This document shows positions 1,939 through 8,135 of a stretch of DNA of 9,109 nt, piece after piece; within the stretch, counting starts at the first letter, position 1; every line of letters starts with the position of its first letter. The position numbers and the translations under genes were made by a program. The stretch comes from Burkholderiales bacterium (GTDB taxonomy: Bacteria > Pseudomonadota > Gammaproteobacteria > Burkholderiales > Burkholderiaceae_C). Under the pieces are notes generated by a model. It did no database searches. It was not told the origin of the DNA and saw only the letters and a program-made list of their open reading frames with translations. The stretch spans positions 1-9,109 of the forward strand of contig CANJKD010000050.1 of NCBI GenBank assembly GCA_947474415.1, in the 5' to 3' direction.

Positions 1939-3459
1939 ATGGCCGCACCCGAAGCCTTCGCAGCAAGCACCGAAGTCGGCCACTTCATCAACGGCCGCGC
2001 CGCACCGAGCACCAGCGGGCGCCGCCAGCCGGTCTTCAACCCGGCCACGGGCGCGGTGGCGCGCCAGGTGGCGCTGGGCTCGGAGGGTGAAGTGAGCGCC
2101 GCCGTGGCCGCCGCGAAGGCCGCTTTCCCGGCCTGGGCCGACACGCCGCCGATCCGCCGCGCGCGCATCATGAACACCTTCCTCGGGCTGCTGAACCAGC
2201 ACCGCGACACGCTCGCCGCCATGATCACCGCCGAGCACGGCAAGGTGTTCACCGACGCGCAGGGCGAGGTCACGCGCGGCATCGACATCGTCGAGTTCGC
2301 CTGCGGCGTGCCGCAGTTGCTGAAGGGCGACTTCACCGATCAAGTGTCAACCGGCATCGACAACTGGACGTTGCGCCAGCCGCTCGGCGTGGTGGCCGGC
2401 ATCACGCCGTTCAACTTCCCCGTCATGGTGCCGATGTGGATGTACCCGGTGGCCATCGCCTGCGGCAACTGCTTCATCCTGAAGCCGAGCGAGCGCGACC
2501 CTTCGGCCAGCGTCTTCATGGCCGAATTGCTGAAGCAGGCCGGCCTGCCCGACGGCGTGTTCAACGTCGTGCAAGGCGACAAGGTGGTGGTTGACGCGCT
2601 GTTGACGCACCCCGACGTGCGCGCGCTGAGCTTCGTCGGCTCGACCCCGATCGCGCAGTACATCTACGACACCGGCGCGCACCACGGCAAGCGCGTGCAG
2701 GCGCTGGGCGGCGCGAAGAACCACATGGTCGTGATGCCCGATGCCGACATCGAGCAGGCCGTCGATGCGCTGATCGGCGCGGCCTACGGTTCGGCCGGCG
2801 AGCGCTGCATGGCGATCAGCGTGGCGGTGCTGGTGGGCGACGTGGCCGACAAGATCATCCCGAAGCTGGCCGAGCGCGCCAAGGCCCTGATCATCAAGAA
2901 CGGCATGGAACTCGACGCCGAGATGGGCCCCATCGTCACGCGCCAGGCGCTGGAGCGTATCGAGGGCTACATCGGCGTGGGGCTTGAGGAAGGCGCGACG
3001 CTGGTCGTCGACGGGCGCGGCTGCAAAGTGGCCGGCCATGAGGGTGGTTTCTTCACCGGCGGCACGCTGTTCGACCACGTCACGCCCAACATGCGCATCT
3101 ACAAGGAAGAGATCTTCGGCCCGGTGCTGTCGTGCGTGCGCGTGCCCGACCTCGCAGCGTCGGTCGACCTGATCAACGCCCACGAGTTCGGCAACGGCGT
3201 GGCCTGCTTCACCAGCGACGGCAACGTGGCGCGCGAGTTCTCGCGCCGCGTGCAGGTCGGCATGGTCGGCATCAACGTGCCCATTCCGGTGCCAATGGCC
3301 TGGCACGGCTTCGGCGGCTGGAAGCGTTCGTTGTTCGGCGACATGCACGCCTACGGCGAGGAAGGGGTGCGCTTCTACACCAAGCAGAAGTCGGTCATGC
3401 AGCGCTGGCCGGCGAGCATTGGCAAGGGTGCTGAGTTCGCGATGCCGACGGCGAAGTAG
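1939..3459 (+). CDS. mmsA: Methylmalonate-semialdehyde dehydrogenase (CoA-acylating)
   Basis: This 506-residue cytosolic enzyme of the aldehyde dehydrogenase superfamily converts methylmalonate semialdehyde (or malonate semialdehyde) with NAD+ and CoA to propionyl-CoA (or acetyl-CoA), in valine and related catabolism. Visible motifs are [11 protein letters not shown] with the conserved Asn159, LKPSE with Lys182, GSAGERCMA with catalytic Cys290 and EEIFGPV at 390-396. In place of the usual general-base Glu loop it has LGGAKNH at about 256-262, a hallmark of the CoA-dependent methylmalonate-semialdehyde subgroup. An upstream in-frame ATT (1909) is unlikely as the start: AGGAG at 1926-1930 sits 8 bases before the ATG at 1939, and the N-terminus then matches the family. 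The gene stands alone behind its divergent LysR-type regulator. Its last 86 bases including the stop are duplicated about 1 kb downstream. Confidence 0.95.
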
Positions 3460-3461
3460 GC
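3376..3461 (+). repeat. 86-bp direct repeat, copy 1 (3' end of mmsA)
   Basis: This stretch covers the last 27 codons of mmsA, the stop codon and two more bases. It is identical in all 86 positions to 4440-4525, at an offset of 1064 bases. Identity stops abruptly on both sides (C3375 versus A4439, T3462 versus G4526). It marks the left boundary of the toxin-antitoxin islet. Confidence 0.95.
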
Positions 3462-3525
3462 TTGGCCTTTGAAGAATGCGGGCAGCACGTTGAAGCATCC
3501 ACCAGCTTGCGGCTCTACGGAAGTA

Positions 3526-3561
3526 TTGACGATACGTATTGCTCGCTTATTATTGGCGAGC
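3526..3561 (+). promoter_or_regulatory. Promoter and palindromic operator of the toxin-antitoxin operon
   Basis: TTGACG (3526-3531) and TATTAT (3548-3553), 16 bases apart, form a strong sigma-70 promoter. A perfect inverted repeat, GCTCGC (3541-3546) and GCGAGC (3556-3561), encloses the -10 box, and an 8-bp palindrome ATACGTAT lies in the spacer (3532-3539). Binding there by the helix-turn-helix antitoxin, with or without toxin, would block RNA polymerase. That is the usual autoregulation of type II modules, inferred here from position. Confidence 0.65.
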
Positions 3562-3817
3562 GAACGCGATCAACTGGCAACCGAAAGCCCTTCGCCAACT
3601 GCGCAAGATTGAAGTTCACGTGGGGAAGCAGATCCGAACGGCGGTGAGTACTGAACTCGTTGACTTGTCGAAGGCCAGGAACGTCAAGGCCCTCACGAAT
3701 CACGACCACGGGTATCGCCTGCGCGTAGGCAACTACAGGGTCTTCTTCGACTTTGACGGTGCGGTCTGCATCGTAAACATTGAAGAGGTCAGGAAGCGCG
3801 ATGAACGCACGTACTGA
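3539..3817 (+). CDS. RelE/ParE-family toxin of a type II toxin-antitoxin pair
   Basis: The protein is up to 92 residues. The conserved part begins at INWQPKALRQLRKI (about residue 11) and contains HDHGYRLRVGNYRVFFDFDG and a C-terminal RKRDERTY. These are typical of the RelE/ParE fold, whose members are mostly ribosome-dependent mRNA endonucleases or gyrase inhibitors. The first in-frame start is a TTG at 3539, but it lies inside the predicted promoter, and no ATG or GTG follows before the conserved region. The real start is therefore uncertain; homologous proteins would be expected to begin near 3560-3569. The gene overlaps the antitoxin gene by 17 bases, which fits translational coupling. 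Toxin-first order is HigBA-like. The fold assignment is firm; the exact target and the start are not. Confidence 0.85.
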   Translation: MLAYYWRANAINWQPKALRQLRKIEVHVGKQIRTAVSTELVDLSKARNVKALTNHDHGYRLRVGNYRVFFDFDGAVCIVNIEEVRKRDERTY

Positions 3818-4133
3818 GTTTCAGGTCATCGTTGGTCAGGACGGAAAGCCTGCCTTCGTCGTGGTGCCCTACGAACAGTTCCGCCGCATGAAAGGCGGCT
3901 TCACACATGGCACCGTACCGGACGAAGTGGTCAACCTGTCGTTCGAGCGTGGCGTGTCCGCGATGGCCGCATGGCGCGAGCACTTTGGCTTCACCCAAGC
4001 CGAGGTCGCGGCCCGCATCGGCATCACCCAGGCGGCATACGCCCAGATGGAGAGAGTGAAGCAACCTCGCAAGGCCACGCTTGAAAAGGTGGCGGCGGCC
4101 TTGGGTCTTGAAGTCGAACAACTTCGCTGGTAA
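3801..4133 (+). CDS. Xre-type helix-turn-helix antitoxin with Phd-like N-terminus
   Basis: This 110-residue partner of the upstream toxin starts at an ATG with AGGA six bases upstream, inside the toxin's last codons. A TTG 21 bases earlier is possible but lacks support. Residues 6-30 (FQVIVGQDGKPAFVVVPYEQ...) resemble the short N-terminal strand-helix of Phd/YefM-type antitoxins. Residues about 52-110 form an Xre/Cro helix-turn-helix with FTQAEVAARIGITQAAYAQM followed by ATLEKVAAALG. The protein should neutralise the toxin and repress the operon through the palindrome over the promoter. Which half binds the toxin is not evident. Confidence 0.85.
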   Translation: MNARTEFQVIVGQDGKPAFVVVPYEQFRRMKGGFTHGTVPDEVVNLSFERGVSAMAAWREHFGFTQAEVAARIGITQAAYAQMERVKQPRKATLEKVAAALGLEVEQLRW

Positions 4134-4439
4134 CCAGTGACGGCCACCGCCTGCGGGCTCATGTCTCGAAGGCGCCACCGTTCGCTTTGCGGGTCACCAC
4201 GGCGAAGTCTTTGACCACGCTGAATTCTTGCTCATGGCCCCCAACGATGACATCGGCGCTCCTGGACCGCTTGCTGGCTCACGTCGACACCGTTCTGATC
4301 GAGGGCAAGAGCTACCGCGGACAGGATCACGCCTGAAGCCTCGCTGCGCCCCCAGCGCCAGCTTCAAGCCAATGCCACCGCGAAATCCTCAGCATTTTGA
4401 AACCGGCCAAAACTCAGCACGTTCGCACCGGCGCCCATA
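4134..4439. other. Gene debris downstream of the antitoxin
   Basis: These 306 bases hold no intact gene. Besides the istB tail described separately, two minus-strand frame tails look protein-like. One ends at a stop at 4159-4161 with residues FSVVKDFAVVTRKANGGAF. The other, with MGAGANVLSFGRF and then DFAVALA, ends at about 4364 and is cut off upstream exactly at the repeat boundary (4440). I do not recognise either. Abrupt joins of unrelated ends suggest successive insertions and deletions. Confidence 0.5.
4247..4336 (+). pseudogene. 3'-terminal remnant of an IS21-type istB ATPase gene
   Basis: In this frame about 29 codons plus a stop read TSALLDRLL, then HVDTVL and EGKSYR. This is the C-terminal pattern of IstB, the AAA+ helper ATPase of IS21-family transposons (ALLDRL...GxSYR). 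The rest of the protein (about 230 residues, with Walker motifs) is missing, and the upstream bases do not continue the alignment. It is a fossil of an insertion sequence inside the islet. The identification rests on a short motif, so confidence is moderate. Confidence 0.6.
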
Positions 4440-4525
4440 TACACCAAGCAGAAGTCGGTCATGCAGCGCTGGCCGGCGAGCATTGGCAAGGGTGCTGAGT
4501 TCGCGATGCCGACGGCGAAGTAGGC
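4440..4525 (+). repeat. 86-bp direct repeat, copy 2 (detached mmsA 3' end)
   Basis: Identical to 3376-3461. It carries the last 27 mmsA codons and stop (4521-4523) without the body of the gene, so it is a pseudogene fragment. It ends six bases before the stop codon of the convergent PIN-domain gene. If the islet were removed by recombination between the copies, mmsA would be left intact and directly convergent with that gene. Confidence 0.95.
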
Positions 4526-4530
4526 GGTCG

Positions 4531-4926
4531 TTACAGCACCCGGACGCCGGGCAAAGTCCGCATCGCCTTGACGAAGGTGGCCGTGTATTCGCACGGCGTA
4601 CTGGCGTTCTTCAGGGCAATCATGGTGTCGGCAAAGTCACACGCCCGCTCGCCGCAAAGGCGGACGGCGTGGCTCAGCCGGTCGCGGTCTTCAAATGAGA
4701 AGGCGGCGCTTTCGAGCAGAGAAGCTATCGCCGTCAGCGCTTCGGCAGGTGCGAAACCATAGAGGCGCCCCAAAACCCAGACCAGCTCGACCAGCACCAT
4801 ATCGTTGACGAAGAACGCGCCTGGTTCACCGTCATGTGCCGCCAGCAGGCGCGAGGCCGCTTTCAATTGCGCGGGTTCGTCGGCCGTCAACAGGCTAACC
4901 AGGACATTCGTGTCCAGGCCGATCAT
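4531..4926 (-). CDS. vapC: PIN-domain toxin of a VapBC-type module
   Basis: This 131-residue predicted endoribonuclease starts with MIGLDTNVLVSLL, the PIN-domain opening with the first catalytic Asp at residue 5. The second acidic residue is Glu47 in VLVELVW, and the third is in CDFADTMI (Asp97 and/or Asp100). The C-terminal end has TFVKAMRTLPGVRVL where relatives usually show TFD; the expected Asp is Val here. That may weaken metal binding, though the fourth acidic position is the least conserved in the family. A start 54 bases upstream is possible but lies inside the antitoxin gene and lacks family similarity. It begins 10 bases after the antitoxin stop without a clear ribosome site, suggesting translational coupling. 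VapC-type toxins cut tRNA or rRNA; the target here is unknown. Confidence 0.87.
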   Translation of the reverse strand: MIGLDTNVLVSLLTADEPAQLKAASRLLAAHDGEPGAFFVNDMVLVELVWVLGRLYGFAPAEALTAIASLLESAAFSFEDRDRLSHAVRLCGERACDFADTMIALKNASTPCEYTATFVKAMRTLPGVRVL

Positions 4927-4936
4927 GGGCGCCGCG

Positions 4937-5200
4937 TCACTTCGGCTTGCGCGAACGCTGGAGGCGATCAACAGCCGCATCGGCCACCGCCTCGTTCATT
5001 TGGCCGGTGCTCACTGCGGCTCGGCCCGGCTGCTTCAGCAGCCCGACGATGGACAGCGCAGAGCGATTCAGTGAGCGCACGGAAATCGATCCATCGTCGT
5101 TCAGCTTGAAGTCGAGCTGAGTTCCCCGCTCGATCTTCAAATGATCACGGATGGCTTTGGGCACCGTGACTTGGCCTTTGATGCTGACGGTAGCGAGCAT
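4937..5200 (-). CDS. vapB: AbrB/SpoVT-type (VapB-like) antitoxin
   Basis: This 87-residue protein has an N-terminal swapped-hairpin AbrB domain: VSIKGQVTVPKAIRDHL at about 5-21, then GTQLDFKL and GSISVR. The C-terminal half (about 50-87) is probably the flexible part that binds the PIN toxin. The ATG at 5200 has AAGGAA on the minus strand (5208-5213) as ribosome binding site. A small inverted repeat, GGAA-AA-TTCC (5201-5210), sits just before the start and could be part of an autoregulatory operator. It is the first gene of the pair and is followed 10 bases later by the toxin gene. Confidence 0.88.
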   Translation of the reverse strand: MLATVSIKGQVTVPKAIRDHLKIERGTQLDFKLNDDGSISVRSLNRSALSIVGLLKQPGRAAVSTGQMNEAVADAAVDRLQRSRKPK

Positions 5201-5287
5201 GGAAAATTCCTTACTTTTTCACGGCGCGGCAACAGATTTTGACAATTTCTGCAAACGGGCACTGGCGACCGACACCGCTGGTTTGAA

Positions 5288-5311
5288 AGCAGCTCCCAGC
5301 TCGGAGCCGCT
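5288..5311 (-). terminator. Weak terminator-like hairpin after the ABC operon
   Basis: On the minus strand, AGCGGCTCC and GGAGCTGCT pair over nine positions (one G-U) around a six-base loop, 20 bases after the permease stop codon. The following bases (CTTTCAAACC) are only weakly T-rich. It may stop or slow transcription before the toxin-antitoxin pair that lies downstream in the same direction. Confidence 0.4.
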
Positions 5312-5330
5312 CGGTCTCTCCCGCAAAGCG

Positions 5331-6158
5331 TCAGAGGCGCTCGGCCTCCGCATCACGCGGCTGCCACTTCATCAGCCGCTTCTCGATTCGGCCCACCGCG
5401 CCATCGAGCATCAAGGCGAACCCGGTCAGCACCAGAATGCCGGCCATCACGGTGTTGATGTCAAACGCGCCTTCGGCCTGCAGGATCAGGTAGCCGACGC
5501 CGCGCGACGAGCCCAGGTACTCGCCCACCACCGCGCCCACGAAGGCCAGGCCGACGCTGGTGTGCAGCGAACTGAAGACCCAGCTCGTTGCGCTCGGCAG
5601 GTACACATGGCGCAGCAGCTGTCTTTGCGATGCCCCCAGCATGCGCGCGTTCGCCAAAATCACCGGGCTGACCTCCTTCACGCCCTGGTAGACGTTGAAG
5701 AAGACGATGAAGAACACCAGCGTGATTCCGAGCGCCACCTTGCTCGCGATGCCGAGCCCGAACCAGACCGCGAAGATCGGCGCCAGAATCACCCGCGGCA
5801 TGCTGTTCAGCGCCTTGATATAGGGCTCGGCGATGGCGGCGGCCATCGGGCTGAGGGCCAGCCACAGGCCACAACCCAAGCCCAGCGCCGTGCCCAGGCC
5901 GAAGGCGAGCACGGTTTCGAGCAGCGTCACCCACAGGTGCTGGTAGATGTCGCCGTTGGTGATGAACCAGGCCCAGATGCGCGCGAAAACCTTCAGCGGC
6001 TCACCGAAGAAGAACGCCGCCTGCTGGTCGTTCTCGAACATGATCGGCGGGATCAGGCCGGGCTTGGTGGCCACATGCCAGACGACGAAGATCGCGACCA
6101 GCAGGCCGAGCTGCCAGACGCGCAGGTTGGCGTGGCTGGGTTGGATGGATTTCCACAT
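5331..6158 (-). CDS. ABC importer permease (SsuC/TauC type)
   Basis: This 275-residue inner-membrane subunit belongs to the nitrate/sulfonate/taurine importer group (BPD transport family). A first membrane segment lies at about 16-31 (QLGLLVAIFVVWHVA). Further segments are at about 76-102, 113-137 and 143-157, then the EAA-type coupling loop ARMLGAS...VYLP at 181-198, which contacts the ATPase, and last segments at about 201-216 and 236-252. A GTG 12 bases upstream (6170) is an alternative start; the ATG at 6158 is preferred because GAGGTG precedes it at a workable distance. It is the third gene of the operon, separated from the ATPase gene by 119 bases containing large hairpins. The substrate is not evident. 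Confidence 0.9.
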   Translation of the reverse strand: MWKSIQPSHANLRVWQLGLLVAIFVVWHVATKPGLIPPIMFENDQQAAFFFGEPLKVFARIWAWFITNGDIYQHLWVTLLETVLAFGLGTALGLGCGLWLALSPMAAAIAEPYIKALNSMPRVILAPIFAVWFGLGIASKVALGITLVFFIVFFNVYQGVKEVSPVILANARMLGASQRQLLRHVYLPSATSWVFSSLHTSVGLAFVGAVVGEYLGSSRGVGYLILQAEGAFDINTVMAGILVLTGFALMLDGAVGRIEKRLMKWQPRDAEAERL

Positions 6159-6170
6159 GATCGTCGGCAC

Positions 6171-6248
6171 CTCAGCCGCCGCCGGGCCGCCCCAAGGCGG
6201 CTGAGCACCAGGGGCCCCTCAGGGACCCCTTCGTGGCCCCTGAGGGGC
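6171..6248. repeat. Two adjacent REP-like hairpins inside the ABC operon
   Basis: CTCAGCCGCC (6171-6180) pairs with GGCGGCTGAG (6196-6205), a 10-bp stem. Nine bases on, GCCCCTCAGGG (6214-6224) pairs with CCCTGAGGGGC (6238-6248), a perfect 11-bp stem. GC-rich paired palindromes of this kind occur as repeated intergenic elements in Burkholderiales genomes (general knowledge; copy number cannot be seen here). Neither is followed by a T-run on the minus strand, so they are more likely to affect mRNA stability or partial termination than to end the operon. A third small hairpin, GACGTG/CACGTC (6260-6279), overlaps the ATPase stop codon. Confidence 0.6.
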
Positions 6249-6277
6249 AGTAGCGAAGCGACGTGGCGGTTGTCACG

Positions 6278-7105
6278 TCACGCCGCCAGCTGCTGCCGGT
6301 AGCCCTTCAGCACCTCTTCGCGCAGCACGCTCCAGATCGCCTGATGCAGCTCGACGAAGCGTGGCGTGACACGCACCTCGGCGACGTCGCGCGGGCGCGG
6401 CAGGTCGATCACGAACTCGCCGATCAGGTGCGCGGCCGGGCCGGCACTGAGGCAGACGACGCGGTCGCTCATCGCGATCGCTTCATCGAGATCGTGCGTG
6501 ATGAACAGCACCGCCTTTCTCTTCGCCGCCCACAGGGCCAGCACTTCGTTCTCCATCAGCTGGCGGGTCTGGATGTCGAGCGCGGAAAAGGGCTCGTCCA
6601 TCAGGATGATGTCGGGGTCGAGCACGAGTGTTTGCGCCAGGCTCACGCGCTTGCGCATGCCGCCCGAGAGCTGGTGCGGATAGCGGTCTCCGAAACCGCC
6701 GAGGCCGACGCGCCGGAGCCAGTCTTCGGCCTGCGCGCGCGCATCGGTGGCGCCGCGAAACTCCAGCCCGGCCATCACGTTCTGCGAGGCGGTGCGCCAG
6801 GGCATCAGCGACTCGGCCTGGAACATGTAGCCGGCGCGGGTGTTGGTGCCGGCGAGCACCTCGCCGAACACCCGCACCTCGCCCGTGCTCGGCGCGAGCA
6901 GCCCCGCCGCCACGTTGAGCAAGGTGCTCTTGCCGCAGCCGGTCGGGCCGACGACCGAGACGAATTCGCCGGCCCCGACGCGCAGGTTCACGTCGCGCAG
7001 GGCGGTGTAGCGCTGGCCGGGATCGTCTTTCGAGACGAAGGTGCAGGAGACGCCGTTCAGCGTCAACGCGGCCGCGCCGACGGCATCGGTCGGCAGGTCA
7101 ACCAC
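6278..7105 (-). CDS. ABC importer ATP-binding subunit (SsuB/TauB type)
   Basis: This 275-residue ATPase energises the importer on the cytoplasmic face of the membrane. All nucleotide-binding motifs are present: Walker A GPTGCGKST (53-61), Q-loop Gln96 in FQAESLMPW, signature LSGGM (146-150), Walker B IILMDE (166-171), D-loop SALD and switch His204 in ITHD. The chosen start is the GTG at 7105, four bases after the binding-protein stop, with GAGG eight bases before it. An ATG at 7132 would overlap the previous gene by 23 bases and has no ribosome site. A much longer open frame extends to 7318, but its extra part is Ser/Arg/Pro-rich shadow of the binding-protein gene. The C-terminal tail (about 235-275) is typical for the sulfonate/nitrate group. 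Confidence 0.93.
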   Translation of the reverse strand: MVDLPTDAVGAAALTLNGVSCTFVSKDDPGQRYTALRDVNLRVGAGEFVSVVGPTGCGKSTLLNVAAGLLAPSTGEVRVFGEVLAGTNTRAGYMFQAESLMPWRTASQNVMAGLEFRGATDARAQAEDWLRRVGLGGFGDRYPHQLSGGMRKRVSLAQTLVLDPDIILMDEPFSALDIQTRQLMENEVLALWAAKRKAVLFITHDLDEAIAMSDRVVCLSAGPAAHLIGEFVIDLPRPRDVAEVRVTPRFVELHQAIWSVLREEVLKGYRQQLAA

Positions 7106-7109
7106 GCAC

Positions 7110-8135
7110 TCAGCCTCGCAGGTACGTGGCATTCGCGCGCTTGACGAACTCGTTGGTGTAGATCGCGCCCAGGTCGATCTTCGCGGCGGCGATTTCGGGG
7201 TCGATGCTGGCCAGCGCCCGGCGCGCGGTTTCGGCGCCGGCCTCGGGGAACATGCCGTCGACCGATAACGCGCCCTTCGCGGCCAGGAAGGCGTCGACAT
7301 ACACGGCGCGGTCGCCAAGCAGGTAGGCCTCGGGCACGGCCTTGATGATGTCGCCGGCGCCGGCTTGCTGGATCCATTTGTCGGCTCGCACTATCGCGTT
7401 GGCCAGCGCCTGCGCGGTGGCCGGGTTCTTGTCGATGAAGCTTTGCGGGGCGTACAGGCAGGCGGCCGGCATCGGGCCACCGAAGATGCGGTCGGCCTCG
7501 GCCACCACACGGGTGTCGGACACCACTTTCAGGTCGCCGGACCGCAGCAGCAAGGTGATCACCGGGTCGAGGTTGCTGATGGCGTCGATCTGGCCCGAGC
7601 GCATGGCCGCCACCGCGCCGCTGCCGGCGCCCACGCCGATGATGGCCACATCGCCCGGCTTCAGCCCGGCCTTGGCGAGCACGAAGTTGGCGAGCACGTT
7701 GGTGCTCGAACCGGGCGCCGTGACGCCGAGCTTCTTGCCCTTCAGCTCAGAGACGTTTTTGAAGTTGGGCATCGTCTTAGGGTTCACGCCGAGCACGATT
7801 TGCGGCGCGCGGCCCTGCAGCACAAAGGCGCGCAGGCGCTGGCCTTTCACCTGCATGTTGATGGTGTGTTCGAACGCACCTGAAACCACATCGGCACTGC
7901 CGCCGATCAGGGCCTGCAAGGCGCGCGAGCCGCCGGCGAAGTCGGCGATGGTGACTTCAAGGCCCTCGGCCTTAAAGTAGCCCAGGCTTTCGGCGATGGT
8001 CAGCGGCAGGTAGTACAGCAGGTTCTTGCCGCCGACGGCCAGGGTGAGCTTGGGCTTTTCGATGGCCTGCGCTCGCACGAAGGCCGGCAGCGCCATCAGC
8101 GAAAAAGCGGCGAGGACAAGACAGCGGCGTTGCAT
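7110..8135 (-). CDS. Periplasmic substrate-binding protein of the ABC importer
   Basis: This 341-residue exported protein is of the SsuA/TauA/NMT1-like type. The signal peptide is clear: MQRR, a hydrophobic core to about residue 20, and a cleavage site after AQA (22-24). The mature part begins PKLTLAVGGKNLLYYLPLTIAESLGYFKAEGLEV, the usual first lobe, followed by GSADVVSG, LKGKKLGVTAPGS and RSGQIDAISN, all typical of this family. The frame stays open far upstream of 8135, but that part has no signal peptide and overlaps the divergent protease gene, so the ATG at 8135 is used despite a weak ribosome site. It is the first gene of the three-gene operon. Family members bind sulfonates, nitrate, bicarbonate, pyrimidine precursors or aromatic acids; the ligand here cannot be named. 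Confidence 0.92.
   Translation of the reverse strand: MQRRCLVLAAFSLMALPAFVRAQAIEKPKLTLAVGGKNLLYYLPLTIAESLGYFKAEGLEVTIADFAGGSRALQALIGGSADVVSGAFEHTINMQVKGQRLRAFVLQGRAPQIVLGVNPKTMPNFKNVSELKGKKLGVTAPGSSTNVLANFVLAKAGLKPGDVAIIGVGAGSGAVAAMRSGQIDAISNLDPVITLLLRSGDLKVVSDTRVVAEADRIFGGPMPAACLYAPQSFIDKNPATAQALANAIVRADKWIQQAGAGDIIKAVPEAYLLGDRAVYVDAFLAAKGALSVDGMFPEAGAETARRALASIDPEIAAAKIDLGAIYTNEFVKRANATYLRG

Follow-up and report, generated by a model that had tools for sequence, protein, structure and literature searches.

The window analyzed here, the whole 9,109-nucleotide stretch of contig C50 from a 2.9-Mb Burkholderiales draft genome (509 contigs, 68% complete; hereafter the bin), carries an intact mmsA gene, and the 3' end of this gene is present a second time farther downstream. 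Between the two copies lies a 978-bp segment with a toxin-antitoxin module and remains of an insertion sequence (IS), and past the second copy follow another toxin-antitoxin pair and an ABC transporter operon (Table 1). The subject of this analysis is the origin of the second copy and of the segment that it bounds.

Table 1. Features of the window around the duplicated mmsA 3' end
Feature	Position	Strand	Basis
mmsA, coenzyme A (CoA)-acylating methylmalonate-semialdehyde dehydrogenase, intact	1939..3459	+	TIGR01722, 690 bits (cut-off 448)
Repeat copy 1: final 27 codons and stop of mmsA, plus GC	3376..3461	+	Self-comparison of the window
Segment separating the repeat copies, 978 bp	3462..4439	.	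59.1% GC
Toxin-antitoxin module, from promoter-like TTGAC..ATACGTAT to antitoxin stop	3526..4133	+	Shared nearly full-length with five other genomes
RelE/ParE-type toxin reading frame	3560..3817	+	PF05016, 6.2e-7 (frame from 3539); alignments
Antitoxin: short Phd-like N-terminal stretch, helix-turn-helix at C-terminal	3801..4133	+	PF01381, 3.5e-11; TIGR01552, 2.3e-5; 434-repressor chains
Acyl-CoA carboxylase carboxyltransferase scrap, doubtful, frameshifted	4157..4227	-	77-82% identity over 40-62 nt, 4 genomes
istB, last 30 codons and stop (IS21-family helper ATPase)	4244..4336	+	IstB similarity
IS21-type right end, two terminal repeats (CAGCATTTTGAAACCGGCC, CAGCACGTTCGCACCGGCG), inferred terminus 4439	4384..4439	+	Comparison with six other ends
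Repeat copy 2: likely stump of the mmsA 3' end, directly adjoining the inferred IS terminus	4440..4525	+	Self-comparison; IS-end comparison
PIN-domain toxin, VapC-like, outside the repeat	4531..4926	-	PF01850, 1.9e-9
AbrB/MazE-type antitoxin, VapB-like	4937..5200	-	PF04014, 1.1e-7; TIGR01439, 4.9e-10
ABC transporter, taurine/sulfonate/nitrate type (permease, ATPase, binding protein)	5331..8132	-	Profile matches

Self-comparison of the window reproduced the perfect duplication of the mmsA 3' end reported in a preliminary description of the sequence, with positions 3376-3461 equal to 4440-4525 over 86 bp with zero mismatches at an offset of 1064 bases. The sharp limits of the identity given there were also found, 4 of the 10 bases to the left differing and the difference to the right being immediate. 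The same description was right that the segment between the copies is more AT-rich (59.1% GC, versus 68.3% in mmsA up to 3375), that it holds a toxin-antitoxin operon, the pair being real by its profile matches, and that no recombinase can be recognized inside it; the insertion-sequence debris mentioned there corresponds to an istB piece and an IS end. In the 121 largest contigs (1,150,268 bases, the window among them), a census of direct repeats within a contig, perfect over 24 bp or more and with words present more than 6 times skipped, gave 17 non-overlapping repeats, 5 of them of at least 40 bp. The 86-bp repeat was the longest, and the other four of at least 40 bp were nearly tandem, with a spacing of 60 to 90. 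A direct repeat of 86 bp is more than chance would produce. When positions 3300-4600 were compared with the whole bin, the single match was the window itself, and an Rfam scan of the window gave no match at gathering scores. A 12-bp match, CTTGGCCTTTGA, links positions 3461-3472 at the right edge of copy 1 with 5170-5181 in the vapB-like gene, probably by chance.

The 978-bp segment is a mosaic of the toxin-antitoxin module, the doubtful carboxyltransferase scrap, the end of istB and an IS right end. The carboxyltransferase identity of the scrap is tentative, with PF01039 matched in one intact relative and the 33-amino-acid fragment of the window giving no Pfam match. The change from the scrap to istB is abrupt and falls between 4228 and 4243. 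The istB piece shows 71% identity over 28 amino acids to IstB of a Caballeronia plasmid and 80% DNA identity to the istB end of a same-genus genome, which itself matches PF01695 at 5.5e-19; the piece in the window reaches 23.5 bits against this profile, just below the cut-off. Elsewhere in the bin, a 490-amino-acid frame of contig C94 gave another, weak match to the IstB family (27.7 bits). The IS remnant in the window amounts to about 195 bp, and of istB only the last 30 codons remain.

The right end of the IS was delimited by comparison with six other ends (L154, L182, L183, L369, L370, and L396). Matches were strong in L154, L182 (8e-9), L183 (7e-8), and L396, and weak in L369 and L370 (E about 0.002 per genome, with 399 genomes searched). 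In the same-genus genome G002 (L154), both the istB end and the IS end are common with the window, and the last 49 bases up to 4437 are identical before the sequences diverge; istB lies directly upstream of the end in L154 and L396, as in the window. Judged from these alignments, 4439 is the most likely terminus of the IS, and the mmsA stump would start at 4440 with no filler in between. The comparison displayed 14 loci, one of which (L178) is the same place as L154; five were kept, L396 was added, and L371, L374, L375, L376, L378, L381, L382, and L383, with short matches lacking the two-repeat layout, were dropped as chance. No full right end of this layout was recognized in L398-L400 or L233, L400 having one similar stretch, and L397 is without the last codons of istB. 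No copy was found in the plasmids searched for the IS right end, and none was seen in any other contig of the bin, where few candidates were scored; in several of the genome searches (module, tail, and IS end), 2 to 5 candidates were scored per genome. The window holds only one IS right end, whereas a composite transposon has two flanking IS copies. The right ends without istB in L182, L183, L369, and L370 may be relics or a non-autonomous derivative, and the IS end of L183 seems to have become part of a lipoprotein-like reading frame.

The right edge of the repeat lies where similarity between mmsA regions ends. With the whole window as the query, the mmsA alignments to all 15 relatives (8 of the same genus and 7 others of the family) stop at 3447-3467, and those of the 8 same-genus ones at 3457-3467. 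Behind mmsA, a VOC-type gene is present in G008 and G009, an amidase-like gene in G003 and further on also in G009, and a transporter gene followed by vapC-vapB in G004 (names other than vapBC were assigned by eye). Since the DNA behind mmsA differs in this way, two haplotypes of the same species are expected to part at about the right edge of the repeat; the observed position agrees with the history proposed below and is no proof of it. The nearest of 146 distinct mmsA ends differs in 7 of the 84 tail bases, and sliding identity along mmsA revealed no clear mosaic. The mmsA gene and the ABC operon are neighbors in 4 of 8 same-genus loci (G003, G004, G008, and G009), the operon not lying within the DNA compared in the remaining 4, and G004 has the same vapC-vapB-ABC stretch at 80% identity over 4537-6161. 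The vapC-vapB pair of the window (4531-5200) begins 5 bases past copy 2. The interval between mmsA and the ABC operon contains differing genes in four same-genus genomes (L155, L156, L159, and L160) and is a variable spot.

In the module between the copies, a RelE/ParE-superfamily toxin adjoins a DNA-binding antitoxin (PF05016 and PF01381), the arrangement of a type II toxin-antitoxin system. Relatives of about 600 bp, near full length and 76-81% identical, are present in G001, G014, G086, G139, and G215. Among 299 genomes, 23 gave some match to the module, and besides the window's own the match was near full length only in G014, G086, G139, and G215; the relative in G001 stems from a separate search. 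Conservation is confined to the stretch from the promoter-like start through the antitoxin stop, the flanks being unconserved and the surroundings in the five genomes being other than in the window (translations judged by eye). The module occurs elsewhere without the mmsA tail. In the five other genomes no direct repeat above 16 bp flanks it, so a repeat such as the 86-bp one does not regularly accompany it. In G014, G086, G139, and G215 the toxin starts at a position that aligns with 3560-3562 of the window, where the codon is not one of the standard start codons, and for this reason the toxin of the window may be silent; G001 likewise deviates at the toxin start (L152, around 2450), and its toxin may be silenced too. 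The relative in G014 (L162 2382-2969, G014:C7) separates the ATPase and permease genes of what is apparently the same ABC transporter operon and adjoins a GNAT-like frame; it would be curious if such modules had reached this operon twice independently. In G001 (L152 1473-2070, G001:C74), an additional pair, presumably HigBA-like, stands shortly upstream of the module relative.

With moderate confidence, we consider that copy 2 likely represents what remained of the 3' part of an mmsA allele after the IS had cut it, and that the toxin-antitoxin segment likely arrived behind the intact mmsA that replaced this allele. The assignment of copy 2 as a likely stump follows from its start, which lies one base after the similarity to the six IS right ends stops. 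The perfect repeat, the mosaic segment, the IS end beside copy 2 and the stop of mmsA similarity near the right edge can be read directly from the sequences; the transposition, the recombination with replacement and the scar are steps that we infer. An IS21-type element would have transposed into mmsA 27 codons ahead of the stop, between the bases matching 3375 and 3376. Incoming DNA of the same species, with another region behind mmsA that included the toxin-antitoxin module and the gene scrap, would then have recombined with this locus, through homology within mmsA on one side and through an illegitimate joint at the istB piece (4228-4243) on the other, after the manner of homology-facilitated illegitimate recombination (HFIR), by which flanking DNA of kilobase length can enter. 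The outcome would be a restored mmsA, with the IS right end, the 86-bp stump and the old vapC-side flank left as a scar. The identity of the two tails fits a donor of close kin. The idea in the preliminary description that the segment could have moved by homologous recombination through mmsA is retained in this changed form.

Several points weigh against this history. The final two bases of the IS end, 4438-4439, are TA in the window and CA in all six other ends, and one further base, a C, is common to three of the six before all diverge, so the terminus is certain to a base or two only. For four of the six ends (L182, L183, L369, and L370), istB was not seen in the about 1.5 kb compared, and the window has neither a left IS end nor a target duplication. 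Among the compared genomes, one per species and none conspecific, no IS-cut mmsA was found, and in none does the toxin-antitoxin module or vapC come immediately after mmsA. Microhomology at the proposed 4228-4243 joint was not established, and the HFIR passage on which the comparison draws concerns segments of 3 to 10 bp (PMC6382021). The identical tails require donor and recipient to be very close kin. At the right edge, alignments between species commonly stop near a stop codon, and the coincidence there amounts to agreement only.

The flush joint of IS and tail would equally be expected if a full second mmsA had once stood downstream of the toxin-antitoxin segment and an IS adjacent deletion had removed everything up to codon 480, a course that also predicts perfect identity if the duplication was recent. 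Adjacent deletions occur with IS families other than IS21. This cis duplication is unlikely, as it needs an earlier duplication, the window repeats nothing from upstream of mmsA, and a direct second tail is absent from the DNA compared for all 146 distinct mmsA ends. The alternative of a full mmsA paralogue named in the preliminary description comes close to what the IS junction implies, but no relative showing the intermediate was found. The joint would also arise by tandem duplication of a 1064-bp unit, the IS end attacking the sister chromosome, followed by loss of the second toxin-antitoxin copy. In that case the second tail would at first have been followed by TTGGCC..., and the model needs a deletion exactly 2 bases past the stop, which makes it very improbable. 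It is rather improbable that the structure is an artifact of assembly, in which a strain with mmsA, the toxin-antitoxin module and an IS remnant was joined, via the shared IS end and tail, to a strain whose mmsA contains the IS. The draft genome to which the window belongs as one contig is fragmented, the two strains would carry just the parental haplotypes of the replacement history, and the IS piece of about 195 bp could mislead a short-read assembler. On the other hand, contigs of the bin tend to stop at repeats (of 29 between-contig matches of at least 40 bp, 25 are at a contig end or no more than about 200 bases from it), no other contig showed the IS end among the few candidates scored, and the flanks are native neighbors in the four same-genus genomes. 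A double-strand break with 86-bp staggered ends, filled by captured fragments with the long overhangs copied on both sides, would explain the a-b-a structure by a single event and fits an insert of patchwork type. This explanation is weakened by the failure to find Ku in the bin (68% complete), and it would make coincidences of both the stop codon at the right edge and the IS terminus at the left one; we regard it as highly improbable.

Direct repeats of a gene 3' end stand on both sides of the segment, as around a genomic island, and the preliminary description had taken the segment for an islet integrated at the mmsA 3' end in the manner of islands at tRNA genes, possibly moved by an enzyme acting in trans. 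Some genomic islands rebuild the 3' end of their target gene, and the window resembles these in its intact target gene with a second 3' end beyond the insert. The location at a gene 3' end, the long identity, the AT-richer content and 11 Phage_integrase matches elsewhere in the bin would suit left and right attachment sites (attL/attR) used by a tyrosine integrase in trans. Unlike such islands, the segment has no recognizable integrase or recombinase gene, only toxin, antitoxin and IS scraps, no recurrence was found, and an attachment site offers no reason for a left edge that coincides with the IS terminus. The mmsA 3' end was present in 176 loci, 7 of which were dropped (the window's own loci, or a stop beyond the locus), and no direct second tail, and with it no other cargo between two tails, occurs in the 169 tested (146 distinct ends). 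Their downstream DNA averaged 3.5 kb and was under 1100 bases in 23 of the 169. One list used in the second-tail search covers the best-ranked matches only, and its result holds among the matches listed. Five of the 169 loci, two of them from one genome, had inverted hits of 26-41 bp inside or upstream of mmsA that were taken as chance. The exact tail pattern occurs in at least 119 stretches of the genomes, with one match each among the 80 stretches listed, and in none of the viral contigs. Phages gave no match to the tail and matched the segment at the toxin-antitoxin boundary only (72-74%, 3 records of 2 phages). No plasmid matched the 978-bp segment; the tail was matched in 23 plasmid records of 288 kb or more at 27 places, with identity of at most 86.7% and two places in 4 records, and 8 of 8 annotated places among the matches listed are mmsA. 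Site-specific integration is accordingly highly improbable as an account of this locus, and the proposal of an integrating islet, with an enzyme acting in trans, is not supported.

The remaining comparison is with known systems, and all the parts at the locus are of known kinds, namely, an IS21-type remnant, a type II toxin-antitoxin pair and a recombination scar; the useful part is the readable junction. Passages on the IS21 family describe two repeats per end and a terminal CA (PMC10122671). The window shares with the family (istA/istB, R1/R2) an istB 3' end, a right end with two repeats and an abrupt stop, and differs from it in keeping about 195 bp only, in lacking istA, the left end and any visible target duplication, and in having TA for CA. 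HFIR in transformable bacteria is described, in passages of PMC6382021, as a homology joint on one side and an illegitimate joint on the other. The mmsA homology side, the illegitimate other side and the adjoining restored gene would match this, as judged here from the end product, whereas those passages concern short segments. A 2020 review presents type II modules of chromosomes that occupy plastic intergenic sites, such as ccd between folA and apaH and mazEF in relA-mazG, and calls the movement and integration of toxin-antitoxin modules unelucidated (PMC7167474). Like those chromosomal modules, the module of the window is a bare unit of about 600 bp that stands between core genes and whose site varies from genome to genome; unlike them, its neighborhood keeps a scar, the IS end with the likely stump, that hints at the route of entry. 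A search of the literature by title returned nothing on such a scar, including mmsA together with islands.

The locus keeps a readable junction from which the arrival of one module can be reconstructed without invoking an unknown mobile cassette. It also calls for caution, as a perfect 3'-end duplication around cargo need not be an integrase attachment site, and an IS terminus at one edge with haplotype divergence at the other could mimic that picture. It is conceivable, though doubtful, that gene rescue is an entry route for toxin-antitoxin modules, in which an IS knocks out a core gene, the intact allele of a neighbor is selected back and a bare module is carried along, the stump serving as a datable scar. 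Were this route general, many arrivals of modules would be recognizable by 3'-end stumps behind IS ends.

Elsewhere in the same draft genome, contig C17 (L251 7065-7316) contains repeats such as GGTTCATCCCCACGCACGTGGGGAACGCC at a spacing of 61 bases that resemble a CRISPR array.

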